Position numbers and translations under genes: made by a program. A DNA stretch of 51,066 bases. It comes from a virus. The notes beneath the pieces are model-generated. The model had not been told where the DNA came from. It saw only the letters and a program-made list of their open reading frames with translations, and searched no databases. The stretch lies in the IMG/VR virus record IMGVR_UViG_3300031578_005720, positions 1-51,066 of that record; one strand, given 5' to 3'. Position 1 is the first letter of the stretch, and each line of letters begins with the position of its first letter. This document shows, piece by piece, positions 15,440 through 44,952 of the stretch.

Positions 15440-15492
15440 ACAGTTCTTTGAGGGTCACCATACCAAAAAGGATGTGCACTGGAGGGCACACA

Positions 15493-25827: not shown

Positions 25828-25885
25828 AACACCGGAGTCCCTTCAACAGCGCACAGGAGGCACAATATGTACTACGCTGCAATGA
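25601..25885 (+). CDS. Hypothetical protein, 94 aa, TTG start
   Basis: TTG at 25601 lies about six bases after GGAGG. The product looks well formed (KPYLAIAFPRGPALWKDVLIVVLDQEDL) with beta strands and a basic tail. A TTGA overlap here would match the coupling style if the upstream gene were in the other frame. No family is recognised. It overlaps queD by 19 bases. Confidence 0.6.
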   Translation: MIYIERFGNVWKLGKDDAKKRVKPYLAIAFPRGPALWKDVLIVVLDQEDLTIAPDVRLVRIDGFKSYDKRTFQLAETPESLQQRTGGTICTTLQ

Positions 25886-26265
25886 CGTTCGAACTGTCGG
25901 TCGCACATAGGTTGGGGGACATGCCTGTGGAGCACAAGTGTCGTAGGCTGCACGGACACAACCTTGAGGTCACAGTAGAGATTGGCGCTGAGGAGCTTGA
26001 TGGGCTAGGATTCGTAATCGAGTTCGCAAAGCTCCGAGAGGTATTCGATAGCAGTGTGTCACAGCGCTTGGATCACGGATGCATCAACGAGACCCTACTA
26101 GACTCACCCATGATGGTTGCGCAGCCCACAGCGGAGCGTCTTGCCGAGTGGATCACGCACACGCTATCGGCGTACCTACCCCAACCCGGCAGGTTTAGAG
26201 GAGTCCATGTATCTCGTGTGGACGTTCGGGAGACTCGACACGCCACAGCCTCCTACGTACCATAG
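25867..26265 (+). CDS. queD: 6-carboxytetrahydropterin synthase QueD
   Basis: QueD makes 6-carboxy-5,6,7,8-tetrahydropterin from dihydroneopterin triphosphate. The 132-aa length is normal. The zinc ligands H14 (SVAHRL), H29 and H31 (LHGHN) and the catalytic C25 are present, with D69-H70 in QRLDHG and E122 in the C-terminal RETRHATA. AGGAGG precedes the ATG. It is followed by an SH3-like gene and then queE, and belongs to the preQ0 pathway with folE and queC. Confidence 0.93.
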   Translation: MYYAAMTFELSVAHRLGDMPVEHKCRRLHGHNLEVTVEIGAEELDGLGFVIEFAKLREVFDSSVSQRLDHGCINETLLDSPMMVAQPTAERLAEWITHTLSAYLPQPGRFRGVHVSRVDVRETRHATASYVP

Positions 26266-26267
26266 TG

Positions 26268-26525
26268 ATGAACGACGACGAGATTCTCGAAGCGCAAGTA
26301 CCACCCCTTTATTCACTGACGGTGACGACAGATGTCCTGAACGTGCGTGAGGCACCTACTCTAGATAGTAGGGTGCGTGGTAAGTTACATGCCGGAGATC
26401 ACATCAGAGAGTGGGCCCAGCACCGTTACGGAGTGTGGCGCTACGTGGATAGCGGTACTCTCACCGGCTGGGTACATGGAGCGTATCTGAAGAACTTGTT
26501 TGAACCTGTGGGGGGTGTGACATAA
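26268..26525 (+). CDS. Stand-alone bacterial SH3 domain protein
   Basis: The product of about 85 aa is a single SH3_3-type domain: VLNVREAPTLDSRVRGKLHAGD, then WRYVDSG and GWVHGAYLKN. Such domains bind cell-wall peptides or other ligands, usually as part of a larger lysin. Here there is no signal peptide or enzyme domain. It could also start at GTG 26265. It lies between queD and queE with overlapping ends, so it is co-translated with the preQ0 genes, which is unusual. Confidence 0.72.
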   Translation: MNDDEILEAQVPPLYSLTVTTDVLNVREAPTLDSRVRGKLHAGDHIREWAQHRYGVWRYVDSGTLTGWVHGAYLKNLFEPVGGVT

Positions 26526-27139
26526 TGAACATCGATACTATCTATCCGACGTTTCAGGGGGAGGGGACTTGGACAGGTCTTCCCGTTGTGCTTGTTCGAA
26601 CGTATGGCTGTAATGGGGTATGCCCATTCTGTGACACGCCTGGGGGCCCAAGCGCGATGGAGATGAGCGTGGTGCAGGTTGTGAAGGAGTGCAACCGACT
26701 TCGCGAAGATTATCCGTACCTACAGCATATCCTCTTGACCGGCGGCGAGCCAGGGCTTGTTGGCGTGGTGGAGCTGGAGGAGTTCTACCTTGAAGCCAAC
26801 GAGGCTGGTTGGGGGGTGCATGTTGAGTCGAATGGGACGCTCTCGCTAGGGTACGACATTAGACCCTTCTGGGTGTGCGTTAGTCCGAAGCCCGCATATA
26901 CACCACCCCTCGACGCTATCGAGATGTACCTTGCGGATGAGATCAAGCTTGTCTATGAGGGTGTGGGCTCTGAGGTGATGCTGGCAGCGTTTCTCAGGGA
27001 CTTCAGAATCACACGTGAAAAGGTCTGTATCCAGCCCTTGTGGGACGACGGGGAGCTTCAGGCGGAGGCCGTTGCCTTCGCTATGAGGCAAGGTTTCAGA
27101 CTGAGCTTTCAAGTACATAAGTACTTGGGATGGAAATAG
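26525..27139 (+). CDS. queE: 7-carboxy-7-deazaguanine synthase QueE (radical SAM)
   Basis: QueE is a radical SAM enzyme that converts 6-carboxytetrahydropterin to 7-carboxy-7-deazaguanine. The 204-aa product has the 4Fe-4S motif C29xxxC33xxC36 (CNGVCPFCDT), the upstream PTFQGEGTWTG, and the SAM site LTGGEP at 71-76. The C-terminus has SFQVHKYLGW, a family signature. The start overlaps the stop of the SH3 gene by one base. The length is typical of compact QueE forms. Confidence 0.94.
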   Translation: MNIDTIYPTFQGEGTWTGLPVVLVRTYGCNGVCPFCDTPGGPSAMEMSVVQVVKECNRLREDYPYLQHILLTGGEPGLVGVVELEEFYLEANEAGWGVHVESNGTLSLGYDIRPFWVCVSPKPAYTPPLDAIEMYLADEIKLVYEGVGSEVMLAAFLRDFRITREKVCIQPLWDDGELQAEAVAFAMRQGFRLSFQVHKYLGWK

Positions 27140-27150
27140 GAGAGTATACG

Positions 27151-27756
27151 ATGACTGAGACTTATGTACAGCAGTACAACTTAAACGCCAGCGTCGTACA
27201 GCACCTGACTGAGGCTTTTAGTATCCTGGACATACACGACCCCAAGGATCCTCACACAGGGCGTACTCCGCAGAGGTTCGCAAGGTATCTACAGTACCTA
27301 AAGGAAGGCGAGCTTGAGGAGTACCGCCTGACAACCTTCCCGAACGCGAATCCCAGGATCGATCATATGGTGGTTGTGCCAAACATCACATTCTGGAGCG
27401 CATGTGCCCACCACACTCTACCATTCATGGGAACAATCAGCGTGGGGTACATCCCGGACGAGCAGGTTATTGGACTTAGTAAAATTCCGCTCCATGCACG
27501 TGCGGTTGCACGGGGATTCTGGCTGCAGGAGCATCTCACGCACTGTATTGCGAATGACCTCATGAGTGCACTTGATCCTCTAGGCGTCGCCATACAGATT
27601 CGGGCACAACACACGTGTCAGCTTCTGGACGTCAAGCAGCCACCAATTCCCGAGATGATCACGACCGTCCTAATGGGAGTGTTCCATCCAGACAGCGGCT
27701 TAACAGGTCCACGTGACGAGTTCTTCGCAGCAGTGCGCCCGGGGGGTAGGGTATGA
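27151..27756 (+). CDS. folE: GTP cyclohydrolase I (FolE)
   Basis: FolE opens GTP to 7,8-dihydroneopterin triphosphate, the first step toward preQ0. Numbering from 27151, the zinc ligands are C85 and H88 (SACAHHTLPF) and C156 (QHTC), with GLSKIPLHARAVARGFWLQEHLT and GRTPQRFARYL as further signatures. The start is taken at 27151 because AGGAGA lies eight bases before it; a GTG or ATG at 27130 lies inside queE. It completes folE-queD-queE-queC in this genome. Confidence 0.94.
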   Translation: MTETYVQQYNLNASVVQHLTEAFSILDIHDPKDPHTGRTPQRFARYLQYLKEGELEEYRLTTFPNANPRIDHMVVVPNITFWSACAHHTLPFMGTISVGYIPDEQVIGLSKIPLHARAVARGFWLQEHLTHCIANDLMSALDPLGVAIQIRAQHTCQLLDVKQPPIPEMITTVLMGVFHPDSGLTGPRDEFFAAVRPGGRV

Positions 27757-27884
27757 ATATGAGGCACGAGTATGCCCTAGTTTGGTTGTTCGTATCACTA
27801 GTACTTGTCTTTCTAGGGCTACTAGTAGTAGCAGCCGCAGTCGCAGTCGCAATCTTGTCGTTCTTTGGAAGTCCAGCAATCTAG
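27753..27884 (+). CDS. Small single-pass membrane protein, 43 aa
   Basis: It starts in an ATGA overlap with folE and is the last plus-strand gene. The peptide is almost all one hydrophobic helix (ALVWLFVSLVLVFLGLLVV) after a short polar start. Its TAG lies in the CTAG that also forms the stop of the convergent minus-strand gene. No family is recognised. Confidence 0.52.
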   Translation: MNMRHEYALVWLFVSLVLVFLGLLVVAAAVAVAILSFFGSPAI

Positions 27885-29188
27885 TCTGTGTAGTACACTG
27901 TTATGTAGGGTCTGTAAGTTGGGTCTACCCACTCTCTGCTGGCAATACTAAACTTACCTGTGAGGCCCTCGTTATACAGAATAAGCCCCGGGTTGGCTCC
28001 CATCGTTTGAGACCACTCCTCGATGAGGTATATTGGTATGTCCACCTCTACCCACCCAGAAGCTGCTGTAAACTCTGCAACCTTGCCGGGAAAGCGGTCC
28101 TCGGGGATTGCCGTGGCTCCAGGCAGCACCCAGTCGGAGCTTATTAACTTTCGGCACCAGTCGGTTGTCATTTCCCCCCAAAGCGGTACCAGAGGCGACA
28201 CGTAGATGACGGAACCCACTTGCTCAAGAGCTACCCCATACAGATGTAGCGTGGCGCGCACCACCTCGGCGTCGTTTGGTACATAGTTGGGTACTAGATT
28301 GAGCCGTATTACGGCAGCGCAGTTATCATCGACGTTGAGAACTGCGGCGTGCCCGTACTGATTGCAGTCGGAGACCTCAGGTGTTGGAGTGACTATTGGC
28401 TCGTCACAGCCATAGATCCCAACACTATCAATGTACACTCCTACCTCGTCGCCCCACATGTAGTGCCATCCAACGACGCCAGCGATAACGGCATCGAGGT
28501 CAAGACCTGCGGTTGTCGCGAGGCCGGCTTCATCTACCCACAGTACGTCATCCATCCACGCCTTGATCGTACCAACAGCAGTCCCACTTGGTAGATACCA
28601 CTCTACATAGAAGTGATGCCAGGTATCCTTAAGTATCGTCCCCAGAGGCCAGTTTGCACCAGGACTGCACGTCTGGCATGTAAGGGTCGCTCGCTTCTCA
28701 TAGGTATCCCACTCCAGTGTCCACCCTTCTTGGTTCCCCCAGGGGGATTCCTGCAACTCGCCCGCTGAAAAAATGTGGTAGCTATCTGACCCAGCATGTC
28801 CAACCTCTTCATCGAAGAGCGCCCAGGCGTCGAGGACGCCTGTAACTATCGGAACAGTGCAAGTGATGTAGGTCGCTGATACACATTCTCCGGCAGTGCA
28901 GTCAGAGTAGTGTAGATAGCTGTAGGTTCCCCCTTGAGCGTAGGTTGCGTTCCTAGTGATTGCCCCCGACCCTACAGAATAGATGTACTCTGCATCCCAA
29001 TCCCCCGGCGGCACATCCTCGTTATCAGTGTACCAATCCTCCTGTGTTGCAGTTGCCGCGTACTCCCCAACAGGCACAGGCGCACGTGGCTGGCAAGCAA
29101 GTTGCACGAGTACAAAGACCCCCGCACATAGCAAGAATGCAGCCAGTAGTAGAGTATCACGATGTTTGGTCATCTTTACATACCTCAT
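27881..29188 (-). CDS. Exported lectin-like protein with CBM96/DNRLRE-like domain
   Basis: The product is about 435 aa; the ATG at 29188 is in an ATGA overlap with the preceding gene. A signal peptide at residues 1-32 ([18 protein letters not shown], then LAC) may be a lipoprotein type, though the lipobox is weak. Residues 55-280 look like a LamG/concanavalin-type domain ([17 protein letters not shown]). After TPTPEVSDC, the C-terminus is DNRLRE/CBM96-like: [46 protein letters not shown]. It should bind polysaccharide. Related lectin domains occur in the next gene. Confidence 0.7.
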
Positions 29189-32100
29189 GGCGGTGGCGCT
29201 GGAGTAGCGTTGCCGACGATTTTGCAGCCGCAATCTTGGAAGTCGTCCGTGTAGATAGGGACGTTATCGCCAAACGTGTAGTGCCAGTTCCGAATCCCCT
29301 GGTAAATCCGTCGGGTTCCGTTCCAGGTCGCTGCGGTTTCTGTCTGTACCGTAGTATCATCAAAGCCAAGTACGCCATCCCACCAACAAGCTACCCGGCC
29401 ATTAGGCTCATCTGGCGGTAGATCCCAGAACACGGTGTAGGTATACCACTGTCCTGCGGACACCCCTATAGGATCGCACGTCCAGGTCTCAGCCACATCG
29501 CATCCTGCACCGGTAGCGCAGTACATCTTTACCTTGTCACCGTCTGCACTGTCTGTAGAGAGCGTCAGGATAGGAGCGCTACCGGCGTCGTCCCAAGGGG
29601 ACATGCGATCTTCAGCAGACCAGAGAGGGTAGGTTACAGCACCTATACCCGGCACAATGTCGTAGTAGATATGTCCCGTGAACCAGCCGGAACTCCTGAC
29701 TTCGGGGCATTCTATCCATGTGTTAGCAGAGCATGCGCTATCCAGACAATCCGCAATCTGGTAGTAGCTGTAGTCGCCCTCAAAAACTTGCGTAGCCGAC
29801 GCCTCAATGTAGCTGTAGTTAGGAGGTCCCCAGTTGTTACCGAATATGCCTTGTCCATCCCAGTCTCCGAAGTTGTTAACATTCGTGTTCCACACCTCGT
29901 TGTCTGTTTCCCAACAGGCATACCAGTCTCCTGTTGGCGTAGCAGTAGCTACCGAAGTGGGTGTGGGTGTCGACGTAGCATCAAAACAAGCGCATTCGCA
30001 CAAGAAGCTATCGCTTCCAACGCTTATTGCCACTATCGTGCCGTGCGGGGTAGGCGTACGGGTTGGTGTCGGCGTAGGGCCACCAGGTGTGGGCGTAGGC
30101 GTATATGTGGCTTCACCTGCCCCAAGAGTGGACGTGGGCGTAGGAGTATACGTGGCTGCTCCTGGTACTAGTGTAGGCGTGCGTGTTGGGGTGATCGTTG
30201 GCGTAGGCGTATACGTAGCTGCTCCTGGCACCAGCGTCGGTGACGCTGTCGGTGTACGTGTCGGCGTGCTGGTTGGCACGGTTGTTGGGGTAACTAGATC
30301 ATCAGTATCACAGTCGTACGCTTCGTCACTGTAGATTATTGCGCTTCCGGTCTCTGACGGGTCCCAGGAAAGCGCTCCCACCTGGACGGCCTCTGCTTGA
30401 TAGAATGAACCACCAGCGGCCATCGATATGCCGCTTTCGTTCACAACCAATGAACCGCCCTTGTACACCTGGATCGTGCCAGTTCCGGGAGAGATAGGTA
30501 GGTCCCACACAACCCTGAATGTTGTCCAGTCACTGGTTGTCACGTTGCCCAAATTCCAAGTGCGGACGGGATCACATACGTCGCAGCTGAGCTGCCACTT
30601 TGGAGCGGGATAGTGGTCTTTCAGGAGGCGCCAGACATTGTTCAGATCACCCGCAGCACAGGGGTCAGCGCCATCCACATCGACAGCCCTCATTACTGAG
30701 TTCCATGCCCCGTTGAAGTAAGACGTACCAAGGAAATGCACCTCAAAGTCTCCATCGTTATCTTGGGTTACGTCGTGACTTACGTAGGCTACAGCAGATG
30801 TTGGGGCTGTCTCATTAGTGTTGTGCTCGTAGCTATACGTCGTATCATAGGCATACAGTGCAGAGAGGTTGACGTTGGAGTTGGCTGATACACATTTGTC
30901 ATCCCACAAGCCCGGGGGTGCTACTTCGTTCGGAGAGTACCAACAGACTGGTGCAGGAGTAGGCGTAAGCGTTGGCGTGGCCGTCGGTGTGGGCGTGAGG
31001 GTGACTGTCGGCGTGATTGTGGCAGTAGGTGTCAAGGTTGGCGTGGGAGTGGCACCCGCAGTTGGCGTAGCTGTTGCCTCGCCACTACGGTAAATCAGTA
31101 TCTCTGCATCTTGCGAGTTCACCGATTCAGATGATGACACAAATGCCCCGGTGTTGATCGACGCTGCCTGTGCGCCGTAGAAGTGCCTCCAGGATGTTCC
31201 AAGCCCTGTAAAGCTGCACGTTCCACTTGTCTTCGGATTCACAAGCACAAGGCAGTTCTCAAACTGCCTATACCAGCAGGTGGTGCCCAGCGCATCTCCA
31301 TCAGACAACTTCTTGCGAAGCGTCTCCCCATCGCCTAGTGAGTAGGCCGGAGTGAGTGGGTTTCCGCAGTAGCCCTGGTTGTTGATGATTGGCTGTGCGT
31401 TTCCTGTGCTAGTATTGACCCAGAACTCGTCAAACACGGGCGCAGAGTTGTAGTTGGTGCAGTACTCGCTTCCGCTGTAATAGCCATCATCGAGCATCGT
31501 GGAACCAAGACCGAGGCGCATAGCTTTGTACGTACCCATCAGATTGTGGTCGCACCCCAGCGAGATCCACACGGCATCGCTACCCACCTCGTCAAGCCAA
31601 CTGAGATACTGCGTCATCTGACACTCCCAATCGCAGGCGCGTGTAAACGACGAGGAGCCAGGCCGATAGCTATCAGCATACATGGTTTGGAAGGGGAACC
31701 ACTCGGACATCGCGATTGTGGACTCGCCACTCATACTGAACGGGTTGTATGAATAGCTCATGTCGGTGGCCTGCCACATCGAGTTGCCACCTATACGCCC
31801 GCTAGGTTGTTGGTCAAGGAAGTCGGCAACAAACGAGTTCACGCCGTCTGCGTATGTCTGGTTTATCCATGTTATACCTGCTGGAACGCCTCCATGATCT
31901 AGCTGGTCTGCACCGCAGTCCGGGTCGCTAGGTGTATAGCATCTGTTACGGTCTTGGTCTACGTTGTAATCATAACCAACTGGCCTTTTGTGGTAGCCTG
32001 CCACATCAAGACGTATGCCGTCCCAATCACAGATGGCGTTGTCGTAGACCCTACTGGAGGCTAGAAAGTCTCCGTACCACGCGTTGTAGGTTTCCCCGCA

Positions 32101-32694
32101 GTAGCCTGTGTTAGCGTAGTCCGAGACGTTGACCATCCAGTCCTTGTACCATACGGTTTGGTGAGAGCGCGCAGCATCGGCCTTGTATAGCCACCAATCG
32201 CAGTTGTTAACTATTTGCCAGTGGTAGCCCCTAACCTGAAAGGCCCCAGTGCTTCCAGAGTATTTGCCCCAGTCAGCTGTTTCCCATCCAGCAGGCATGT
32301 AGACAAACAGTTTTAGGTTTGGGTTCTGCTGCTTGAGATACGTGCAAATCCCAGGAGATGCGGTGTCCGTAAATGCCCCGGATTGCAGTTCCACGATATG
32401 ATACATGGTTGCAATAGAGCGTTGGGGTGTCCAATCTCCCCAGCGAAGCCATGTTAGATAGAGCCTGGGAAACTTGTGTGCTGGCCAAGGCCCACCGCCA
32501 GGCGTGCCCGCCCCGGTTAGCATGGCAGCGTCTTCAGGTCGCATCCAGTGCACAACGCCTTCAGAGTAACCCTCTTCCGTTGGCGCCAGGATGGGCGTGG
32601 GAGTATGCGGAGGCGTGCAAGAAAACAACGCACTGCCGACCACTACAGCGGCTACAACAAACAACAGTATGAGCGCGAGCAGTTGTTTACGCAT
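29185..32694 (-). CDS. Exported GHL15-like glycoside hydrolase with two lectin-like domains
   Basis: The 1169-aa product starts with a lipoprotein-type signal ([22 protein letters not shown]26). Residues about 45-540 resemble the GHL15 putative glycosidase barrel: [14 protein letters not shown], then [13 protein letters not shown] with a likely catalytic Asp near 225, and [14 protein letters not shown]. Thr-Pro linkers at about 540-581 and 798-918 flank two LamG/lectin-like domains (about 590-795 and 920-1155) related to each other and to the lectin domain in the next gene. AGGAG precedes the ATG. It probably binds and cuts cell-surface polysaccharide. Such linkers are typical of secreted Chloroflexota proteins. 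Confidence 0.75.
30091..30240 (-). repeat. Thr-Pro linker repeats (ATYTPTPT units)
   Basis: Three AATYTPTPT or EATYTPTPT units with [11 protein letters not shown] spacers form a repetitive linker in the GHL15-like protein. On the plus strand the repeat reads as GGCGTAGGCGTAT-like blocks that create false open frames. Confidence 0.75.
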
Positions 32695-32703
32695 GGTGAA
32701 CTC

Positions 32704-33768
32704 CTAAGGCGTTGGCGTAACCGTCACACAGACGCAATCACAGTAGACATGAGCAGGCTCAGGTGTTGCGGTAGGTACAACAGTTGGTGTGGTCGTAGGC
32801 ACAGGGGCCGGTGTAGCCGTTGGAGTCGGAGTAGGTGCAGGCGATCCGAAAGCCATGTCTTGAAATGCTTGCCCAACCACAGATAGCGTTGACGAATTGC
32901 GCTCCACAAGGAGGTTGCCGGCCAGCTCGTCAACATAGGTTGCATACCAGAAGTGTTGCTCGATATAGGGTTGTCTACCAAGCCAACCCCACGTAGCACG
33001 CAAAAACTCCGCAACACGAGCAGCCTCTGTAGGCGAGTCCCCATAGTCCGAGAGCACGCCCCATTCCGAGATTATCCAAGGCAGCTGTGACATGGTGGGT
33101 GCCCAATTATTCATCCAGGTTTCGTTCAGGTGTTTTGTCCGCAAGACAGCATCCTGAAACTGCGCGACATTGAACCTGTTGACAAAGTCATTGTAGAAGT
33201 GGTAATGCAGCCCATCCATAGGTGGAAGGCTACCATACTTGTCGCTGTACACCTCCAGGAACGCTCCCATCCATTTCCAGTGCGCTTGATAGTTTGACGT
33301 GCCACAACAGTACACCTTACTTGTGGGATCAGTAGTCTTTAGGATATTGTAGATGTCATTGTAGGTGTCAGCCGCAATACTAGGAAGACAGTCAGCCTGA
33401 TCCTGCCGGTCTGGTTCGTTGAAGATCAACCACTTCAGCCCAGGGTACTTTGCAGCAAACCGCTCTATCGATGACAGGCTCACGGTATCCCAGGAGCTGC
33501 CTGAAGTACCACAACCCCACTGATACGCTACGTACTCAATCCCCTCAGGTAGTGCGTCGATCGCCCTGTCCAGGTAGTTCCAGTTATGCACAGAGACAGA
33601 GCCCATTGCATCTATTCCCGGGAGTTGTGCTACAGGAGCGCTAGGCCAGCCCACACCTCCCTTGTGTGCCAAAGGGGCACGTGCGAGCTCAACCTGCGCA
33701 GTTGGGGGCGCACAGTTGCCAGCGAGAGCTATTACTGCTAGGAGGGCAAGTGCTCCAAAGCGCCTCAT
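32704..33768 (-). CDS. Exported clan-A-type glycoside hydrolase (Asl1-like)
   Basis: The 354-aa product has an N-terminal signal (ALALLAVIALAGNC; the site is not a clean lipobox). The barrel has the two acid signatures of GH clan A: IFNEPD (acid/base Glu) and IISEWG (nucleophile Glu), with LHYHFYND between. This fits the Asl1-like glycosyl hydrolase family. The C-terminus has a Thr-Pro linker and a short Cys tail (CDCVC). It probably cleaves a host surface glycan. Its ATG overlaps the stop of the gene before it (ATGA). Confidence 0.75.
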   Translation of the reverse strand: MRRFGALALLAVIALAGNCAPPTAQVELARAPLAHKGGVGWPSAPVAQLPGIDAMGSVSVHNWNYLDRAIDALPEGIEYVAYQWGCGTSGSSWDTVSLSSIERFAAKYPGLKWLIFNEPDRQDQADCLPSIAADTYNDIYNILKTTDPTSKVYCCGTSNYQAHWKWMGAFLEVYSDKYGSLPPMDGLHYHFYNDFVNRFNVAQFQDAVLRTKHLNETWMNNWAPTMSQLPWIISEWGVLSDYGDSPTEAARVAEFLRATWGWLGRQPYIEQHFWYATYVDELAGNLLVERNSSTLSVVGQAFQDMAFGSPAPTPTPTATPAPVPTTTPTVVPTATPEPAHVYCDCVCVTVTPTP

Positions 33769-34008: not shown

Positions 34009-35223
34009 CTACGCAGCCTCTAGGAACCCGTCATCGGAGAGGGGCTCCCAGTAACAATGCCAATCGATCGCTCCACTAGCCAGGGCGGCACTCAACACTA
34101 GTCGTACGTAGGTATCGGCGGCGTTGTCTTCCACGATATCGATGGCCGTTTTGGGCTCTCTCCAACTCACATTCTCAGCTACCGCTGGCGTTGTGTTGGG
34201 GTCTGCTAGGCCTAGTGGGTCGGTTGAGGGGCCGTTCCTAACCAACAAACCCCCCGCGACCACGCTATCGATATCTACTCCCGGGGCGTCGGTGATATCT
34301 ACGGACGCATTGGTTGAATAGAGTTCGAGGTGGATTGTGCTCACAGTATTAGGAATAGGCGTCCCAACCATGCCGAAGATGTCACTGATTCTTACGGAGC
34401 CTGTCACCTTAAAGATGTTGTAAGCCGTAGGCGCCCCAGCAAACGTGACAGTCTTGTGGACTTCGTCATCGTAGGTGAAGGCACTCCACACAAACGCATG
34501 GTTTGCATCTACCCACCTGCCGTCGCCTCCACCACTCGCACATTCACGGATTTCCCCATTTGTGCAGCCCGCGTCAACCTGAAACCCCGCAGTCGCGTGG
34601 CCTTGGCTCCCAGAGTTTTTGATTCGGCACTTGTCGCAGCTGTTGGTAACCCAGAACCCTATGGAAACGTCTGCGGCCTCGCCCCCGGTACGACAGTCCT
34701 CTATCCTGACCGCGTCACCCTGAATCTTGAAAGCAGCCACCAGTGGGTTAGAAGAGCGGCAATTGGTGAGCACGCAGCCGTCGCCAGTGATATCGTAGCC
34801 CAGGTCCGCGACGGAGTCGCACTTGACCCTCACATCGCTTATGTAGCAGTAGTTCCCCGAGATCAGCAGGCCAGTGGTGTTCGCGCCGTCAGGGTCGACC
34901 AGGAGCGCGCCACCAGGACACCATATTTTGCAGTAGGAGCCTGACACCGTTAGGGCTGTTCCGGTAGCGGGCTTGATAATAGCTCCTACCTCGGGCCACA
35001 TCTCGCAGCCGTTGGTGTCTAGGTCCAATCCGGTTTCGGTGTAGGTTCCGGCCATAATGTTGATAGCGTCGCCAACACTCAGGACGTCGATGCCAGCCCC
35101 GATCGTTTCGAACGCAGTGCCGGGCGTCTTTCCATCGTCGGCATCCGATCCGTTGTTCTTATCAACGTACCAGATGTTTCCCCCGAACTTTACTATGTGT
35201 GCGGTGTGATCTATGTAGCTCAT
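34009..35223 (-). CDS. Beta-helix tail spike-like protein
   Basis: The 404-aa product begins IWYVDKNNGSDADDGKT, the start seen in right-handed parallel beta-helix (pectate-lyase-like) proteins. It continues with short repeating turns (GCVLTNCRSSN, DAVRIEDCRTGG, SCDKCRIKNSGS, GCTNGEIRECAS), each a likely helix rung. The C-terminal 130 residues form a separate beta-rich domain. Such proteins bind or degrade host polysaccharide at the tail tip. It has no signal peptide and is encoded after the fibre gene, so it is probably a virion tail spike or receptor-binding protein. Confidence 0.72.
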   Translation of the reverse strand: MSYIDHTAHIVKFGGNIWYVDKNNGSDADDGKTPGTAFETIGAGIDVLSVGDAINIMAGTYTETGLDLDTNGCEMWPEVGAIIKPATGTALTVSGSYCKIWCPGGALLVDPDGANTTGLLISGNYCYISDVRVKCDSVADLGYDITGDGCVLTNCRSSNPLVAAFKIQGDAVRIEDCRTGGEAADVSIGFWVTNSCDKCRIKNSGSQGHATAGFQVDAGCTNGEIRECASGGGDGRWVDANHAFVWSAFTYDDEVHKTVTFAGAPTAYNIFKVTGSVRISDIFGMVGTPIPNTVSTIHLELYSTNASVDITDAPGVDIDSVVAGGLLVRNGPSTDPLGLADPNTTPAVAENVSWREPKTAIDIVEDNAADTYVRLVLSAALASGAIDWHCYWEPLSDDGFLEAA

Positions 35224-35229
35224 ATCATC

Positions 35230-36153
35230 CTACTTGAGGTTCCATTGGGTGCCGTTGTAGATCATCTGAACAGCATCACCTGCTGTGCTGAAGACAATAC
35301 TTGCGCTGCCGTTGATGTTCTTCCCGTTTCCCGCGATAGTCAATGGGTTGCCAGCCGTCTCCAGTATGACCGTGTAAACCCTGCCATCCTCTGGTGCTGC
35401 TGGTAGGGTAACTATGAAAGCTCCCCCAGATGTATCACACAGCACGTTTTCGTCCGTCGCCAACACCGCGTAGTTGGCTATTTTGGCTGTGGTGTTGATG
35501 TTCTCGATTCTTCCGCTGTCTGAGCTTATCTGACCTGCAGCTGTCACATGGGCAAGGATCGCGGTTGTGCTGTCCTGCCACTCTTGTAGGTTAGCCGACT
35601 GTGCCACGATTCCCCGCACAATCGCCTTCACTACAGCGGCACCTGCGGCATTGAAAATGTGTAGACCAGTCCAGGTAGGCACGATAGCCTGGTCGAGTTG
35701 GTGGGCGTGGTCGGAATGTGCAAAGCTATCCGCCGTGCCTATAGCGCTAGCGGCCAGGTCAACACTAGGGGACGCCGGTGCGGCCCAAGCTGGTGTAATG
35801 GTCAAGGTGTTACCGGGACCACCATCTACGAGCGTCAACGCGGCTACAGCAGCCAGGTAGCGCTCGAAGTTCATAGTGGGCTGGGCCGTAAGCATTAGGA
35901 ATGGAAGGTTCGCAACGTCCACAGCGCCCGCCGTAGCGCTAACGACAAGCGTTCCGGCTCCGGGCGTAAGCGCAATACCAGCACCTGCGGTGAGTACGCT
36001 TTCGGCAGTTAGAAGAGTAGATGGGCTAACTACGACGTATGGCTCGTTACGCAGGTCGGCGACGCTCCCACCACCTCCGCCACCGTCGTCCTCGCCCCAG
36101 CCTAGCGTTATCCAGGCGGTGTTTTCTTTGTTCCGTACCTTGAGGAGTGCCAT
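35230..36153 (-). CDS. Tail fibre-like protein
   Basis: The 307-aa product has a short N-terminal part, a Gly-rich linker (DDGGGGGGS), Ala/Thr/Val-rich segments and an SDHAHQ motif, common in phage tail fibres. The C-terminal part has beta-strand repeats (GGAFIVTLPAAPEDG, GNPLTIAGNGKNINGS). It overlaps the hub gene by one base and is followed by the beta-helix gene. It probably forms a trimeric fibre. Confidence 0.65.
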   Translation of the reverse strand: MALLKVRNKENTAWITLGWGEDDGGGGGGSVADLRNEPYVVVSPSTLLTAESVLTAGAGIALTPGAGTLVVSATAGAVDVANLPFLMLTAQPTMNFERYLAAVAALTLVDGGPGNTLTITPAWAAPASPSVDLAASAIGTADSFAHSDHAHQLDQAIVPTWTGLHIFNAAGAAVVKAIVRGIVAQSANLQEWQDSTTAILAHVTAAGQISSDSGRIENINTTAKIANYAVLATDENVLCDTSGGAFIVTLPAAPEDGRVYTVILETAGNPLTIAGNGKNINGSASIVFSTAGDAVQMIYNGTQWNLK

Positions 36154-37712
36154 TACTCGTCAGCTCCAGAAGTGTCCACCCACATCATGCCGCCGTACGT
36201 TATGCTGGGTGCGTCGCCACTCACAACGGCAAACGTACGTTTGCGTGCGTACCTACGCTGTTTCATAAGTTCATGGAGCTCTCGGACGCCTACGTCGGTG
36301 GGCAGTAGGCGCATTGTGTCGGTAAGGTCCAACTGGTAAATTACATCCGTGGCGGTCACTTCAGCGGTTACGTTGACAACAACGAAGTTCCTGTTGAGGT
36401 CATCGAAGGTATACTGCCTCCGCCACATGGTCAGAGCGTCTTCGAACTCAACGTGCCCAACACACTCAAGACGTACTAAGTCGCCCGGGTGGAGTACTAC
36501 GTCTAGACCCCGAGCAGTAACCGATACCTGGAGAGCCGCTTGGTCATTTGCTAGAAGCCTACCCACGGCAGCATCCACAAGTGCCTGACGTGCCTCGTTC
36601 ACCTTCTCTTGGTCATACGGGAAGCTCTTGCTTATCTTGAACTCCGTACCTAGCGCGAACGCCCCCCAACCCCCGTAAACAGTGTTCCCCATATGTCCCT
36701 GGACGGGATACGAGATTCCACCGATCTCGAGCACGCCCTCAGTCCAGAAGCCGTTGTTAGGTCTGTTCAGCACCTCGCTCGTAATAGAGTTTCCCGCCGT
36801 TGCTGCATCGAGCGTACCGTTCGCGGTAACCTCTGTATTGGAAAGCGGTTCAATCGTATCGAACGACGCCTGCCTCAGAAGGCCCCCTGTGCAGAGCGTA
36901 ACGCCCGCGGACACCACAGTGGATGCATTGAGCACCACTGCAAGGCCTCCCGCGAAATGTTGGAAGCTAAACCCTTCGGGTAGTTCCTCATTGCCTACAG
37001 GACGCAAAGGTTCAGAGACACTATCCTCCCTAACGTGCTCCCCGCCCTCGGGATAGACACCACACAGGACCTCAGACGCGTTTATAACGATCTGGGGGGC
37101 CTCTACGTATCCGTAGGTTGTGGGTAACACCTCAAGGTCGCCCTCAGCACATACGAGGGTGGCCACGACGCCCCCAACTGGCTCCGTTAGGATATCGAGA
37201 ACACGAGAGTGCCCATTGTGCCTGAAGTAGTTACCTGACATGCTGCACAGCTCTACCAGAGCACCGAGGAACGTCTGCCCCTCCAGGTTTGCTGTAATAA
37301 AGCTATTCACTGCTGTACTGGTGTCACCCAGAACCCACTCCGTACCACTTGCTAGCAAGATCTGCGCAAGTACGTCTAGCACAGGGCGGAAGGACGCGTA
37401 GTATCCTGGCGGAAGGCAACCCTGTCGAAGCTCTTCAAGCACCCCGTTTCCTCCAGCAACCATGTTGCCAGGGATTATCTGATCGTGGGTGCACGTGAGC
37501 CATCTACCGTAGGGCAGGAGTTCGCCGAATGGCCCCATAATCTCCATGAGGAACATTCGGAAGTCCTCAGGTATAAGGTCCTTCCACGCAGCGTATGGGG
37601 CAGACACAGAGGACGACCCAGCCTCACTTAACCCCTGAGTTGTGGTTGCACTCGGTGGAGCAACTATGCCACCCGCGAAGCCGTCATCACGGTCGTAGAA
37701 CTGGAAGATCAC
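36153..37712 (-). CDS. Tail-tip/hub-like minor tail protein
   Basis: The product is about 519 aa. GTG at 37712 is favoured, with GGGGG before it; an earlier in-frame start at 37784 would overlap the upstream gene by 61 bases. The middle part has hub-like features (LDVLAQILLASGTEWVLGD, GALVELCSMSGNYFRHNG, DVVLHPGDLVRL), as in tail-hub proteins of siphophages. The C-terminus is helical and basic (HELMKQRRYARKR). No lysozyme motif is seen. Its position after the tail-distal genes fits the hub at the tail tip. Confidence 0.62.
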   Translation of the reverse strand: MIFQFYDRDDGFAGGIVAPPSATTTQGLSEAGSSSVSAPYAAWKDLIPEDFRMFLMEIMGPFGELLPYGRWLTCTHDQIIPGNMVAGGNGVLEELRQGCLPPGYYASFRPVLDVLAQILLASGTEWVLGDTSTAVNSFITANLEGQTFLGALVELCSMSGNYFRHNGHSRVLDILTEPVGGVVATLVCAEGDLEVLPTTYGYVEAPQIVINASEVLCGVYPEGGEHVREDSVSEPLRPVGNEELPEGFSFQHFAGGLAVVLNASTVVSAGVTLCTGGLLRQASFDTIEPLSNTEVTANGTLDAATAGNSITSEVLNRPNNGFWTEGVLEIGGISYPVQGHMGNTVYGGWGAFALGTEFKISKSFPYDQEKVNEARQALVDAAVGRLLANDQAALQVSVTARGLDVVLHPGDLVRLECVGHVEFEDALTMWRRQYTFDDLNRNFVVVNVTAEVTATDVIYQLDLTDTMRLLPTDVGVRELHELMKQRRYARKRTFAVVSGDAPSITYGGMMWVDTSGADE

Positions 37713-37723
37713 GTAAGGACCCC

Positions 37724-38866
37724 CTACACGTACTGCGGTACTATGTCGTAACTCACGTGGAACTGATGCCCTGGAAGCCTCCATCCCGTGAAGCTAATGT
37801 GGTTGGCTCCTGGCCACAACTTGCCCACGTGAGAAGTAGTTCGCTCCGCGATCGCAAGTGGTGTGCCAATGGAGGCTATATCTGCGAACTCTGCCGTAGG
37901 TAGCGTATCATAGCAGTGATCATCATGTAGAGGACAGTACCGAACCTCAGCACCAAACCGCGGATCGATAAGAGCATACTGTGGCTCGGCTACCTTCTGA
38001 CGGATCGTAAAGCTACTGGTCCAGCCTGCTGGTGTACAGATCGTGACCTGTAGCCATGTAAAGTTCGTGAACGCCCAGCGATTAAGGGGTGGGGTGTCCC
38101 CCTCCACCATGAGGGTCATGTCTCCAGTCTCATCCTTGTGTGCGGAGCCTATGTGTGCACGCTTCCACCCTTCGGCGCTCCAGTACCCGACGCAGTACGC
38201 CTCTATCCAGCTGGCTGGTAGGTTCCGGTACCATCTGAACGGTGGCTCCGGGAGGCACAGGGGGAGGTTACAGGGCCAGGCGGCTCGGGTAACTCCTAAG
38301 GGAACGCAGGGGTCGCTGGGGTTGACAACAAACGACTCCGGGATGCCAAAAGCCCAGGTGCTGGGTGTCATGCGCATCCAGTGTGTATCCGGCTCGAACG
38401 TCAGAGATACCTCTCCGGGTGTATTCCCCACACGTGCGCCAGCACCCGTTTCGCTCGTCCACTGTATCCCCTGATACCTTGCACGTTTCGCGAACCATGC
38501 TACAGATGTGTCCGTACCGCAGGAGTTGCAGTGACGAATTGGGCGAGAGCATCGACCGCATTGACAGGACACTCCCCGGTAGCCAACAAGCCAGTCCTTG
38601 TATCCTACAAACTTCTTGAGCTCCCTGCCCCACTCCTCCTGTGTACGCTTACCATGACACAAAGCCTTCCCGCGTACTGTCACGGGCGATGAAGACATTG
38701 GTGCACGTGCGCTAGCACGGAGATCTAGACCAAAGTCCTGATACCCGTTGGTAAGCATATCTACTTGAGCCTGCGCTGACTGGTCAGACTGCAAGTCTCC
38801 AAGAGCCCCTAACCAGACAGGCCTGAAGTCCACAGCAGTTTTTGAGCCGAACTGTGCAATGTGCAT
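37724..38866 (-). CDS. Distal tail protein-like with Cys-rich insert
   Basis: The 380-aa product lies two genes after the tape measure gene, the usual place for a distal tail (Dit) or tail-tip protein. A Cys-rich insert near residues 99-118 (CQCGRCSRPIRHCNSCG) looks like a zinc finger. The rest is beta-rich with many tryptophans (WLQVTICTPAGW, ISFTGWRLPGHQFHVS). The Dit assignment rests on position and general pattern only. Confidence 0.5.
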   Translation of the reverse strand: MHIAQFGSKTAVDFRPVWLGALGDLQSDQSAQAQVDMLTNGYQDFGLDLRASARAPMSSSPVTVRGKALCHGKRTQEEWGRELKKFVGYKDWLVGYRGVSCQCGRCSRPIRHCNSCGTDTSVAWFAKRARYQGIQWTSETGAGARVGNTPGEVSLTFEPDTHWMRMTPSTWAFGIPESFVVNPSDPCVPLGVTRAAWPCNLPLCLPEPPFRWYRNLPASWIEAYCVGYWSAEGWKRAHIGSAHKDETGDMTLMVEGDTPPLNRWAFTNFTWLQVTICTPAGWTSSFTIRQKVAEPQYALIDPRFGAEVRYCPLHDDHCYDTLPTAEFADIASIGTPLAIAERTTSHVGKLWPGANHISFTGWRLPGHQFHVSYDIVPQYV

Positions 38867-39453: not shown

Positions 39454-42400
39454 CTAAGAAAGCCCAGCGCGCTGAGCAGCACGTACAATCTGTGTGCCGA
39501 GTCTACTACCTATTCCGGCCACCGAAGCCCCAATCTCTCTAGCCATACGCGCGCTCACTGGGGCATTTACATGAACTGGTATGCTCAACATCTGTATCAC
39601 GACACCACCCCCACCAGAACCTCCCCCGGGCATCGATACCTGTCCGCGCCCAAGAGCCTGGTTAAGGAGCTCATTTGTACGTGCTCTATCCGATAGGGGT
39701 AGTATAAGTTCGTTGGGGTGTAGCTGTGCGAGGCCAGACCGCGCCCCGGTATAGATGCCTTGCGCGAAGCCCGGCACGTTTTGCCAATCCGTACTGGGCC
39801 CCTGTACCCAGCGGTCCTCGCCAGATTCCGCCCTGTACCAAGTTATACCTTCAGTATCCGTGTGTACGTTTCCGCTCCACCCCGGGTAGTTACGTACTTT
39901 TCCTGGTGGTGTTTCCTCCTCCCCGCCTGGTGGCTTGTTGAGACGCTTCGCAGCGTCCTCGAATGCCTTAATGAGATTGCCCGTCGCCTCATCCAACGTG
40001 ATGAACTTGTCTGCGGAGCTCTCGAGTGGCGGAATGAGTTTCTTTCGCGCCAGGTACTCGTTGTGCCAGATGTCTGCGAGGGTCTGCGTTTCCTCTCCGA
40101 CGCCCTGCTCTGCGAGGCGTGCTCTGGCTGTTTCAGCCTCGGGTCCTGTAGGAGCCATGATTGGAGCACCAGGAGCGTGAAACTGCTCTAGTGGGTACCA
40201 CTCCTTGAACCAGCGAGCCTTCCACCAATCTTCCGAGGGAGCCTCGCCCCCATGCTCCTTTGCGTATTGTTCACCTGCCAGCTTGTCCATCATCCATGCG
40301 GTGAGGGGCTCCTCGTGACGTGCGTAGGCAGACAGCGGGCTAGTACCGTGTTCTATCTCGTATGCCAATGCTGCATTACCAGCGGCCGAGGATAGTAACA
40401 TTGCCTCTGCGGCCTTCTTCAGGTCGCTAGTGCCCTCCCCCATACGTGTGGCGGCCTTTTCCAGGTCCTTGGCAATCTTCTCCCAGCGTGTATCTATCTC
40501 CTCACGTCGTGCCATTGCGGTGAGTGATTCTGGGTCTTTTCCGAACTCGAACTGCCACTGACGGAGCTCTGCCATGTATCCTTCATAAAAGGCCTCAACG
40601 TTCCCCATACCTGTGTAGGGTGCAATTCGGACCGCTGTACCTTTGGCCTCCCCCTGCAGGGCCTTCTCGACATCCATAGCGGCGCCTATCATCTTGCCCA
40701 TGAGGCTGTCAACGCCCCTACCCATACGGTAGAGCATATCGTCGAAGGCGTCCTCAATAACACTCATTGAGTGCCTGGCAGTTTCTGTGGTCAGGTCCCC
40801 GAGCTCGTCTATCTGGTCACGCATCTCAAGCCCCAGTTGCAGGGCCCGGATATAGGGGAGGCCCATGTCCATGGCTTCAACGATGAAATCGCTTACTGTG
40901 TCGTTGATATCTTCCTGGCGATCTCTAACCTGCTCCAGGAGATCTATCTCGACATCGAGGCCCATGTTAAACTGCTCAAGACGGATCATACCCTCGGGCT
41001 CAAAGATCTTGGCACCTAACTCATCATAGATGGCCCTAAGCTCATCGCCCTTAGTCTTGAGCATCTCCATTATGGTCTCTGTGCTTACACCCTGCTGCAC
41101 AAGGCCGACGATGCGTTCCTCAAGCGCTTCATCAGCATCCGTGTATGCCTCTTTGACCTCGTCGGAAAGTCTCTTCTCGTTGTCACGTGTGATCTTGAGC
41201 TGCTTCTGGTACTCCTGCAGGGCAACAGCGGCATCCGGAGACATTCCGAAGTACTCACTCTGAGGCTCCTCGCCATATACAACACTCCTAAGGTGTTTCG
41301 TTGCCGCTAGTAGCTCCTCCTCCGAAAGCGCCCCTGCACTAACTCTCCTGCGTGGGGTTACACTGCGCATACGCTCCTGTGCGCTCCTAAGTGTAGCCTC
41401 GTCTATTTCCCCTTCCTTGTACATCCTCTTGATTTCGTCCCACAAGTTCTTCTGTTCCAACATCTCTTGTAGGGCCCAACGATTTCGGGCAAGTATTTCC
41501 GGGTCTGGAGCAACGACTGACAAGGAGGGCATGAAAAAGTACGCCATAGCATCGGATATCCACTTTCCCACACCTGTCCACGCGCTCTTCGTATCCTCCG
41601 CGAGAGTACCTTGTGACCTCGCAAGGTCAAGCGTTCGCTGCTCCATTTGGGGAAGGAGCTCATTGAGGATAACAACGATCTTCTCTTCTTCAGAAAGCTG
41701 TTCGACCGTACGGTACGTTTCCTCAGCAAGTTGCTCCACAGCGTCCGTAAGACCCGTAAAGCCTTGTTCTGCTTCCAGGGACTCCGTGTCCGCATCCCTA
41801 ATAGATGCGACCCACGACTTCAGTACAGCCGCTGTGGTTTCACCCACAGCACGTGCATGGTAGTATGCGGTCTCTGACAGCTGCGGAATTGCCTCCGCAA
41901 GCTCCTCGTACCCTGAAAGGACCTGCCTATTCGCAAGAGTAATAGCATCATACTCTACCCCAGCGAAGTGTGTTGCCTCCTGAACACCCTGCATGAACCT
42001 TCTTGTAGCAACCGAGGACGCATCGCCCCACGCTTGGTACGCACTTGTGGCTGCACGTAACTTCTCTGTATCCGCAGCCTGATCCATAGCGCGCTTCAGG
42101 GCCTTTGCGACGGTCTCCGCGACACGTTGGACAACCAACATGCCCATTGCAACTTGCCACCATGCGCCCCCAGACTCTCTAGCCCAACGGAAGAGCAGGC
42201 CGCCGCGCATACCCCCGTAACGACTAATTGCCTGCTGCCATGCAGGCCAAAAGTCAAGCTGTTTCTGCTGCTGCTTGGTAACGACCTGTACCTGCCACCC
42301 GTACTGGCGCATCGCCTTAGCAACAAGCTCATACTGTGCGACCCCAGCAAAAGTCTCCGAGTTCCTAGCCTTCGTCGACTGGACCAGGCGTACCTGGTCC

Positions 42401-42666
42401 TTGTTTAGCTGCTGAATCTCCCAGCCCTCGTCCTTAAGTGCCATTCTGGACTTGAGAAGGAGGTCGTACTTCAGCTTGAAGTCGGGATGCGCTGCGCGAG
42501 CCTTCCGTGCTCGATCCCACTCGGCTCTAGTAAGCTTCTCTGTACCCGTGGCAGCCGCAACTGTAGCCTGGTCGAATGCCTGGAGGGAACGTTTAGACTG
42601 TTCCCAGCCCTCTACTATGAACTGGTATACGAATCGCCAGATTTGGGCGTCTTTAACGTCTGCCAT
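39454..42666 (-). CDS. Tail tape measure protein
   Basis: The 1070-aa product is mostly alpha-helical with long coiled-coil stretches (EEKIVVILNELLPQMEQRTLDLARS) and a hydrophobic part (WWQVAMGMLVVQRVAETVAKAL). The C-terminus has SGLAQLHPNELILPLSDRA and a Gly-rich hinge, a signature of tape measure proteins. It sets tail length and is ejected into the host. By the usual 1.5 Å per residue rule the tail would be about 160 nm. It starts inside the end of the chaperone frame (14 bases overlap). Confidence 0.9.
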   Translation of the reverse strand: MADVKDAQIWRFVYQFIVEGWEQSKRSLQAFDQATVAAATGTEKLTRAEWDRARKARAAHPDFKLKYDLLLKSRMALKDEGWEIQQLNKDQVRLVQSTKARNSETFAGVAQYELVAKAMRQYGWQVQVVTKQQQKQLDFWPAWQQAISRYGGMRGGLLFRWARESGGAWWQVAMGMLVVQRVAETVAKALKRAMDQAADTEKLRAATSAYQAWGDASSVATRRFMQGVQEATHFAGVEYDAITLANRQVLSGYEELAEAIPQLSETAYYHARAVGETTAAVLKSWVASIRDADTESLEAEQGFTGLTDAVEQLAEETYRTVEQLSEEEKIVVILNELLPQMEQRTLDLARSQGTLAEDTKSAWTGVGKWISDAMAYFFMPSLSVVAPDPEILARNRWALQEMLEQKNLWDEIKRMYKEGEIDEATLRSAQERMRSVTPRRRVSAGALSEEELLAATKHLRSVVYGEEPQSEYFGMSPDAAVALQEYQKQLKITRDNEKRLSDEVKEAYTDADEALEERIVGLVQQGVSTETIMEMLKTKGDELRAIYDELGAKIFEPEGMIRLEQFNMGLDVEIDLLEQVRDRQEDINDTVSDFIVEAMDMGLPYIRALQLGLEMRDQIDELGDLTTETARHSMSVIEDAFDDMLYRMGRGVDSLMGKMIGAAMDVEKALQGEAKGTAVRIAPYTGMGNVEAFYEGYMAELRQWQFEFGKDPESLTAMARREEIDTRWEKIAKDLEKAATRMGEGTSDLKKAAEAMLLSSAAGNAALAYEIEHGTSPLSAYARHEEPLTAWMMDKLAGEQYAKEHGGEAPSEDWWKARWFKEWYPLEQFHAPGAPIMAPTGPEAETARARLAEQGVGEETQTLADIWHNEYLARKKLIPPLESSADKFITLDEATGNLIKAFEDAAKRLNKPPGGEEETPPGKVRNYPGWSGNVHTDTEGITWYRAESGEDRWVQGPSTDWQNVPGFAQGIYTGARSGLAQLHPNELILPLSDRARTNELLNQALGRGQVSMPGGGSGGGGVVIQMLSIPVHVNAPVSARMAREIGASVAGIGSRLGTQIVRAAQRAGLS

Positions 42667-43530: not shown

Positions 43531-44952
43531 CTACGCGATCATTCTTTCGAACAGGACTAGCTGCGCGACGAAGCCCTCTTCGCCAGCTACCAGCAAGCGA
43601 TCGTAGCACGCCACGATCTGCGTCAGCTCCTCTGCTACGATGCCTGCTACGGCGAGTGCCCACCAGGTGTGTCCTCCGTCCAGCGTGAGCTCCATGTCGT
43701 TCGTCTCACCTGAGGCAGCCAGCCGATAGCCGATGTAGCAGTTCAGGAAGAGGAAGTTGGTCCAGTTATCGGTATCGACAACCACCCAGGTTGTTCCTTC
43801 GTCATTCGTGTACGATGCACCATCGCTACCCATCACCCAGATGCGACAGTCCACACGCTGCACTGCGCTTTGCCCAGCTAGGCCGCTTGCTGTGATCGTG
43901 GACCACGCTAGGCCTCCGACCTGGCTGATGTACGTCGCTGTGGCCGTGACAGCTACACCCACACCGTCGTTGGACATGTGGATGTCCACGAACGCTCCAG
44001 TCTCGATCTGCGTCCAGGTTACACCGTTATCCGTCGAGTACCAGATACCATTGCCGACAGCAAAGATAGTTCCCAGGTACTCAGCGAACGCCACAGTCAT
44101 GTATGGACAGGCCACTAGGGTTGTCCAGGTCGTACCGCCATCATGACTGTAGTGCATGCAGCCGTCCTCAGTTGCGACGATGACGACATCACGATCACAG
44201 TAGAGCGCCGTGACATCCAGGAGGGTGTAGGTTATATCAGACAGGTCCAACTGTCCAGCGCCTACGCCCTGCTTGTTCGTCCAGGTTACTCCACCGTCAA
44301 CCGACAGGTACAGGAAGCCGTTCTCGCCACCTAGCCAGATCGTCTCGCAACCGGCATCGTATGGCTGTACACAGGTAGTTGCGCAAGCCCCGCACAGGGG
44401 ACCACCGCAGTAAGCAGCCGCCAGGATGTCGTCCGTACCACCGGCCCAGGACTCACTCTCCCCGATCTGCACGACGTCGTGTCTCTCCCAGAGGATCCAG
44501 TCGTCCACATGTAGAGAAGCGCGCTGCCCTGTGATAGCAGAGTCGTCATCCAGGCCCATCGTGACGTTCTCGGTAAACTCGTCCGTCTCGATGGACGCAT
44601 CGGGCAGGTACATCAGTCGATCGAACTGTGCGTCCCACTTCGTTACTTCAGCCTGCGAAGCACACTTCTTCCATCCTACGACCATGGTGAAGGGACAAAC
44701 ACGATGCAACCACGACCATAGGATCTCTGAAGGAGCTTCCACTGTTGGCTTGATCGGCTCGGGTGCAGCCCGAGTTCGGCCAACAACCTCTCGGATGTCC
44801 TCCCCCGTGCGACAGTAGTGCGAGGTGATCGCGCCACGCCCACGTGTGAGGCCGCTAACACGTAAGCATCCCTGCCACTGTGCGCGACTCCCACACGTAT
44901 CCATGAGAAAAACGGAGGCCATCCCCGACTTGACGAAATTCTTGTTACTCAT
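43531..44952 (-). CDS. Major tail tube protein with C-terminal BNR beta-propeller
   Basis: The 473-aa product lies just before the chaperone genes, the usual place of the tail tube gene. Residues 1-180 are the likely tube domain. Residues 200-473 have at least five Asp-box repeats of the SxDxGxTW type: SVDGGVTW near 217, SHDGGTTW near 269, STDNGVTW near 306, TNDEGTTW near 382 and TLDGGHTW near 423. This is a BNR/sortilin-like beta-propeller. A Cys cluster lies at the junction (CGGPLCGACATTC). The propeller would decorate the outer face of the tail. TTGGAGGT precedes the ATG. Confidence 0.68.
   Translation of the reverse strand: MSNKNFVKSGMASVFLMDTCGSRAQWQGCLRVSGLTRGRGAITSHYCRTGEDIREVVGRTRAAPEPIKPTVEAPSEILWSWLHRVCPFTMVVGWKKCASQAEVTKWDAQFDRLMYLPDASIETDEFTENVTMGLDDDSAITGQRASLHVDDWILWERHDVVQIGESESWAGGTDDILAAAYCGGPLCGACATTCVQPYDAGCETIWLGGENGFLYLSVDGGVTWTNKQGVGAGQLDLSDITYTLLDVTALYCDRDVVIVATEDGCMHYSHDGGTTWTTLVACPYMTVAFAEYLGTIFAVGNGIWYSTDNGVTWTQIETGAFVDIHMSNDGVGVAVTATATYISQVGGLAWSTITASGLAGQSAVQRVDCRIWVMGSDGASYTNDEGTTWVVVDTDNWTNFLFLNCYIGYRLAASGETNDMELTLDGGHTWWALAVAGIVAEELTQIVACYDRLLVAGEEGFVAQLVLFERMIA

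Follow-up and report, generated by a model that had tools for sequence, protein, structure and literature searches.

Three consecutive genes at the end of the late arm of IMG/VR virus record IMGVR_UViG_3300031578_005720 appear to encode an exported carbohydrate-active module that would be made late in infection. Its most likely role, put forward here tentatively and with somewhat less than even confidence, is to aid the release of progeny and to block re-adsorption. The whole record, 51,066 bases, was analyzed and is called the window below. All three proteins are also present in a second phage, the 75 kb IMG/VR record IMGVR_UViG_3300033150_000473 (the relative, whose genes and proteins are marked 1', 2' and 3'), at 45-54% identity over the matching domains. 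Phage depolymerases are usually seen as parts of the virion, and glycosidases of viruses as additions to metabolism. An exported set that is conserved suggests that some phages remodel the exterior of the infected cell before lysis, which bears on phage release, on exclusion and on environmental carbon turnover. The trio also offers testable enzymes, of GH128 type and GHL15-like, together with a GH141-like one in the relative. A limited literature search turned up no earlier account of three linked, conserved phage proteins that are both exported and carbohydrate-active.

Gene arrangement

The plus arm of the window carries replication and small genes, including those for a family A DNA polymerase and a helicase. 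The minus arm starts at the right end with sugar genes, continues with the tail genes, among them one for a tape-measure-sized protein (39454-42666), and ends at 27881. No terminase, portal or capsid protein was recognized among the window proteins scanned, and the window is therefore probably an incomplete genome. The same virus is represented by another contig (L002), with 99.98% identity to the window across the overlap. Where the two arms meet, a hydrophobic reading frame of 43 residues lies on the plus strand (27753-27881), overlapping the end of gene 3; its matches to PHROG families are only marginal.

A sequence-only reading had placed three consecutive genes at the end of the late arm, and they are indeed found there, all on the minus strand. 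Gene 1 (32704-33768; 354 aa) encodes a signal followed by a GH128-type glycosidase, a Thr-Pro linker and a CxCxC tail. Gene 2 (29185-32694; 1169 aa) encodes a signal, a GHL15-like barrel and two lectin-like domains on Thr-Pro linkers, and gene 3 (27881-29173 with a corrected start, or from 29188; 430 aa) a signal, a lectin-like domain and a DNRLRE/CBM96-type domain. The genes are closely packed: genes 1 and 2 are 9 bp apart, genes 2 and 3 share an ATGA-type overlap, and there is a further overlap at 33765/33768. Such packing behind the tail genes implies that the trio would be expressed late. The TTG start at 29233 that the ORF tool gave for gene 3 is probably wrong. Of the alternatives, the ATG at 29188 overlaps the stop of gene 2 and that at 29173 has GAGGT just upstream, and either places the hydrophobic segment of gene 3 at the N-terminus.

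Repeated Thr-Pro linkers occur in genes 1 and 2 and in no other called gene of the window, while gene 3 has a single TPT; linkers of this kind recall Chloroflexota. Cysteine content does not distinguish the trio from the rest of the window. In codon usage, genes 1 and 3 deviate somewhat (r=0.50 versus the rest), but so do the neighboring fiber-like genes, and the deviation thus does not by itself indicate recent capture. Chimeric assembly is ruled out by the overlapping genes and by the relative, in which genes 2' and 3' come behind the tail genes in matching order.

Catalytic and binding domains

The sequence-only reading had assigned a GH barrel to gene 1, a GHL15-like barrel with two lectin-like domains to gene 2, and a lectin with a CBM96-like partner to gene 3. 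Profile and homology comparisons broadly agree with the three assignments, the GHL15 link being distant and the resemblances of the lectin-like domains to PF14099 and of the partner to CBM96 weak. In protein 1, residues 34-308 (32845-33669, minus strand) match Glyco_hydro_cc, the Pfam family of GH128 (PF11790), with E=6.7e-18 and 65.6 bits against a cut-off of 21; the protein of the relative scores 77.9 bits. A profile built from proteins 1 and 1' also matches the GH128 structures PDB 6uaw and 6uav at 2e-5. Both candidate catalytic residues, Glu118 in an NEP motif and Glu235 in SEW (TEF/SEW in the alignment), are invariant in comparison with four bacterial members and are present in the relative as well. 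Gene 1 is accordingly a predicted GH128-type glycosidase with both catalytic glutamates. It resembles GH128 (PF11790; PDB 6uav, 6uaw, 6uay, 6ub0) in standing well over the Pfam cut-off and in keeping the glutamate pair. It differs in being only about 22% identical to the aligned bacterial members, in being phage-borne and known from sequence alone, and in its Thr-Pro linker (32707-32844, minus strand), which ends in YCDCVC. Another phage-like contig, IMGVR_UViG_3300044822_000077 (L025:5875-6630), carries a GH128 protein whose signal peptide is clear (MRRAIAALVLWVSAALPAFGQ); export of a viral GH128 would thus not be unique to the window.

The barrel of gene 2, together with a C-terminal sandwich, spans residues 58-539 (31078-32523, minus strand) and is 54% identical in the relative. 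It has no direct Pfam match to GHL15 (PF14885), and the connection is made through a bridge. A tblastn search of 7.3 Gb with the barrel gave a plasmid-encoded protein of Rhodococcus (E=4e-3; E=4e-10 when the two are compared pairwise), and this protein is a clear GHL15 member (PF14885, E=4.7e-24). A profile of four GHL15 sequences gives gene 2 a score of 23.3 bits versus at most 6.2 for 200 shuffles and the other ORFs. Barrel and sandwich can be aligned along their length with GHL15 proteins, the difference being the lack of a direct Pfam score and the addition of two lectin-like domains. By these comparisons, the predicted barrel is a distant member of GHL15, which to our knowledge is a biochemically uncharacterized glycoside hydrolase-like family. 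Neither 52 genomes from the phylum to which a delta-proteobacterial MAG belongs nor up to 396 Actinomycetota genomes yielded a cellular relative of the barrel. An AlphaFold model of the barrel built without an alignment is poor (pLDDT 33.8).

The two lectin-like domains of gene 2, at residues 585-796 (30307-30942, minus strand) and 928-1157 (29224-29913, minus strand), are homologous to the lectin-like domain of gene 3 at residues 47-257 (28403-29035, minus strand), with E=6e-14 and E=2e-15, respectively, and about 29% identity. Their similarity to PF14099, a family of ConA-like/polysaccharide lyase fold, is weak (E 7e-4) and under the cut-off. The AlphaFold model of gene 3 is poor (mean pLDDT 33-34), and its top Foldseek matches, to pentraxin, CBM66 and LG-type ConA-like folds with E >0.01, are no more than suggestive. 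The second domain of gene 3 (27896-28336, minus strand) matches the DNRLRE family NF033679 (E=2.4e-8; 34.2 bits, curated cut-off 34), and CBM96 at E=0.046, which is not over the CBM96 cut-off. CxCxC motifs follow Thr-Pro linkers in two of the proteins: CDCVC in protein 1 (32728-32742) and CECAC at residues 899-903 of protein 2 (29986-30000, minus strand). The latter is conserved in the relative as CECEC in protein 2', and protein 1' ends in CVMDCKC.

Glycosidases at the end of a late arm, where lysis genes often lie, might also attack the host cell wall once exported, replacing or helping an endolysin. Cwp19, a GHL10 relative, is a peptidoglycan hydrolase (PMC5765458), and among the proteins scanned in either phage no endolysin was recognized. 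That count is to be read with the caveat that the window, probably a fragment lacking head genes, was scanned for only part of its ORFs. Moreover, an ORF with an SH3 domain and weak amidase-family similarity exists at 26265-26525, and beta-1,3-glucan is the substrate of GH128 members (PMC10956234). A role as lysis or egress enzymes thus seems rather improbable.

Export-type N-termini

Export signals were sought among mechanically called ORFs of at least 60 aa with a home-made test, not SignalP, for a positive n-region and a hydrophobic h-region. Of 243 ORFs only 4 pass, two of them short antisense frames and the others genes 1 and 2. Gene 3 joins them once its start is corrected. Besides the trio, whose members are consecutive, no other called gene of the window passes. 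All three N-termini have Arg/Lys first and then a hydrophobic core of 14-21 residues that ends at or near a Cys before Pro-rich sequence. The export-type segment of gene 1 is MRRFGALALLAVIALAGNC (33712-33768), that of gene 2 contains a lipobox-like ALFS-C at Cys26 (32617-32694), of which the Ser-Cys is conserved in the relative, and that of gene 3 comprises 27 residues (29093-29173), all on the minus strand. The signal peptide that had been proposed for each protein is therefore recovered by this screen.

In the relative the N-termini are different and again hydrophobic. Protein 2' begins with a hydrophobic segment ending in Cys (MDMHKQKQLLLITAGILVVAALLGLRSC) and protein 3' with a classical signal peptide (MKSKVVFCILVSAILALAVFAVVSA-DP), while protein 1' has a transmembrane-type hydrophobic segment from about residue 17, the orientation of which is ambiguous from the flanking charges. 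Little of their sequence can be aligned with the N-termini of the window proteins, the exceptions being a few positions of protein 2, Ser-Cys among them. That the hydrophobic character is maintained in spite of the changed sequence points to selection for membrane targeting. Together with the location of gene 1' outside the tail module, the preservation of all three proteins in this distant syntenic phage supports the earlier proposal that the infected host exports them, and export of the trio from the infected cell can be considered a well-supported prediction.

The sequence-only reading had further suggested anchoring as lipoproteins, and this part is borne out only to a degree. The lipobox pattern PS51257, which we take to be [LIVMFWSTAG](2)-[LIVMFYSTAGCQ]-[AGS]-C, is fitted by protein 2 (ALFS-C) and missed by proteins 1 (AGN-C, Asn at -1) and 3 (VQLA-C, Gln at -3). 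In the relative, protein 2' has Arg at -2, protein 3' a site of signal-peptidase I type (VSA-DP) and protein 1' possibly an uncleaved membrane segment. Lipidation is hence plausible for protein 2 only.

The lipobox-like site on protein 2 would suit superinfection exclusion, in which proteins anchored at the surface hide or destroy the receptor that other phages would use. Phage lipoproteins encoded within the structural cluster are known to exclude other phages in coliphages (PMC11893012), and the trio shares with them that it is phage-encoded, predicted to be exported and located within such a cluster. The coliphage proteins, however, are identified by a strict lipobox and reported to block the receptor or DNA entry, whereas the trio consists of large enzymes of several domains, lectin domains included. 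As a rule, exclusion proteins are expressed early or in a lysogen, and no integrase was seen among the scanned window proteins; protein 3', moreover, appears secreted rather than anchored. Exclusion as the primary function is a distinctly poor candidate.

The second phage

The relative was reached through an alignment of bacterial GH128 proteins and gene 1, which gave twelve viral contigs. Its protein 1' shares AHKGGVAW and HNWNYLERAI with gene 1, and a search of the 75 kb record with genes 2 and 3 revealed gene 2' (54% identity over 859 aa) and gene 3' (46% over 393 aa). A later scan with gene 2 gave the same record and no other. By direct search of viral contigs no close relatives were found for genes 1 and 2, the tail protein at 36153-37784 or the lectin alignment, and tblastn of genes 1-3 against phage genomes gave no match. 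The two phages have a common late-arm order from a glycosyltransferase fusion to the last tail protein, after which genes 2' and 3' follow in the relative. Gene 1' lies in the early arm, beside frames that look dCTP-deaminase-like and ThyX-like when their sequences are read by eye. Comparison of the window with the relative shows saturation at synonymous sites and, as a proportion, roughly half as much nonsynonymous as synonymous change; the proteins are therefore under constraint. In the late arm of the relative, L045:1548-2291 encodes a cysteine protease of the papain family (PF00112, E=7e-9).

Protein 3' carries an N-terminal domain that is absent from gene 3 of the window. This beta-helix matches the parallel beta-helix PDB 9rx2 (E=5.4e-46) and the GH141 enzyme BT_1002 (PDB 5mqp, E=1.6e-10), with a weak match to the GH141 insertion domain. 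The presence of a GH141-like domain in one phage and not the other indicates that the exported set changes its enzyme domains and keeps its binding domains.

The GH128 and GH141-like domains are of kinds typical of enzymes secreted to degrade polysaccharide, and the proteins could be products of auxiliary metabolic genes, digesting environmental beta-1,3-glucan or other polymers and thereby feeding host and phage. The early-arm position of gene 1' is in line with this, as is the precedent of soil viruses, which encode active glycosidases such as a GH5 endomannanase (PMC6786970) and a chitosanase (PMC9485262). Like the trio, these are virus-encoded enzymes from environmental metagenomes; the two papers (PMC6786970, PMC9485262) mention no signal peptides, while here three exported proteins with lectin domains form a conserved set. 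On the other hand, a packed late operon behind the tail genes contains the whole trio in the window and genes 2' and 3' in the relative, which is late for feeding, and no sugar-uptake gene was seen beside the trio. We regard feeding as an unlikely explanation, if the least unlikely of those that compete with a late role in release.

The relative also bears on whether the proteins might belong to the virion. At L044:16723-19644 a tail protein (phrog_5302, E=1e-92) adjoins a reverse transcriptase (phrog_1423, E=5e-125), and a pair of 80-base repeats at 18183 and 18347 agrees at 60 of 80 positions, compared with a shuffled maximum of 41, with all 20 mismatches falling at adenines of the template copy. 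The relative thus has a diversity-generating retroelement aimed at the tail protein, and its likely receptor-binding protein would lie elsewhere than in the trio. If the three were instead virion depolymerases, that is, tail or fiber proteins, their hydrophobic N-termini would be attachment or membrane-contact segments. Genes 2' and 3' do stand directly after the last tail gene of the relative, the usual place of tail fibers. A tail protein of the virion would be expected in the tail module and free of export signals; what is found is export-type N-termini in both phages and a gene 1' outside the module. Signal-type N-termini would, moreover, divert tail proteins from the cytoplasm. Besides the separate diversified tail protein of the relative, the window has two fiber-like late genes of its own that lack such signals (34009-36153, minus strand), one with a beta-helix (34009-35223) and one with a domain like the C-terminal part of depolymerases (35230-36153). 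A virion role of the trio is therefore unlikely, and we give it little credence.

Proposed role

Several observations favor the exported module: only the trio passes the export screen, gene 1 keeps the GH128 glutamate pair, the Rhodococcus bridge ties gene 2 to GHL15, the lectin-like domains are homologous, the proteins are conserved in a second phage with protein 1' encoded outside the tail module, and protein 3' has a GH141-like domain. In such a scheme, the host Sec pathway would move the proteins over the membrane before lysis. Some might stay tethered, by lipid or by an uncleaved signal, and others would perhaps be released. Through the lectin and CBM domains the enzymes would be kept on host-surface or matrix polysaccharide, which they would cut. 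Progeny would thereby come free of the dying cell's polysaccharide and be stopped from re-adsorbing to it, with receptor loss for competing phages as a side effect. Counted against a late role in release are gene 1', which from its place in the early arm need not be expressed late, the off-consensus lipoboxes of proteins 1 and 3, the Arg at -2 of protein 2' and the ambiguous orientation of the segment in protein 1'. The capsule clearance, block of re-adsorption and surface exclusion that had been suggested from the sequence are all compatible with the predicted anatomy of the trio.

Phage glycosidases directed at extracellular polysaccharide have a precedent in GH32 of the Bacillus phages SP10, phiNIT1 and SPG24, which is thought to act on extracellular host levan (PMC4595243). 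It resembles the trio in its presumed target outside the cell and differs in being a GH32 protein that has no signal peptide. A broader and more speculative idea, possible though doubtful at present, is that some tailed phages carry a receptor-destroying module of exported glycosidases and lectins, comparable to the neuraminidase of influenza, in which the membrane attachment is swapped and the cargo kept.

Other features of the window

7-Deazaguanine genes lie at 8712-9443, 15436-16179 and 25867-27756. They include QueC (PF06508, E=1e-56) and a Vut_1 family transporter, with QueD, QueE and FolE recognized by eye, and likely serve DNA base modification. The gene at 16561-17334 (phrog_20335) may belong to the same set. 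In a related virus of the same metagenome (L003; 80-86% DNA identity), most of the Vut_1 transporter region is absent in comparison with 15387-16131 of the window.

The glycosyltransferase fusion that adjoins the tail genes (46880-49567) joins a group 1 glycosyltransferase to two GT2 parts and is 48% identical in the relative. Its neighbors are epimerase-type and UDP-sugar dehydrogenase genes in the window and sulfotransferase genes in the 75 kb relative. Within the tail module, the protein at 43531-44952 has BNR/Asp-box repeats, is 51% identical in the relative and is perhaps a tail tube with an inserted propeller.
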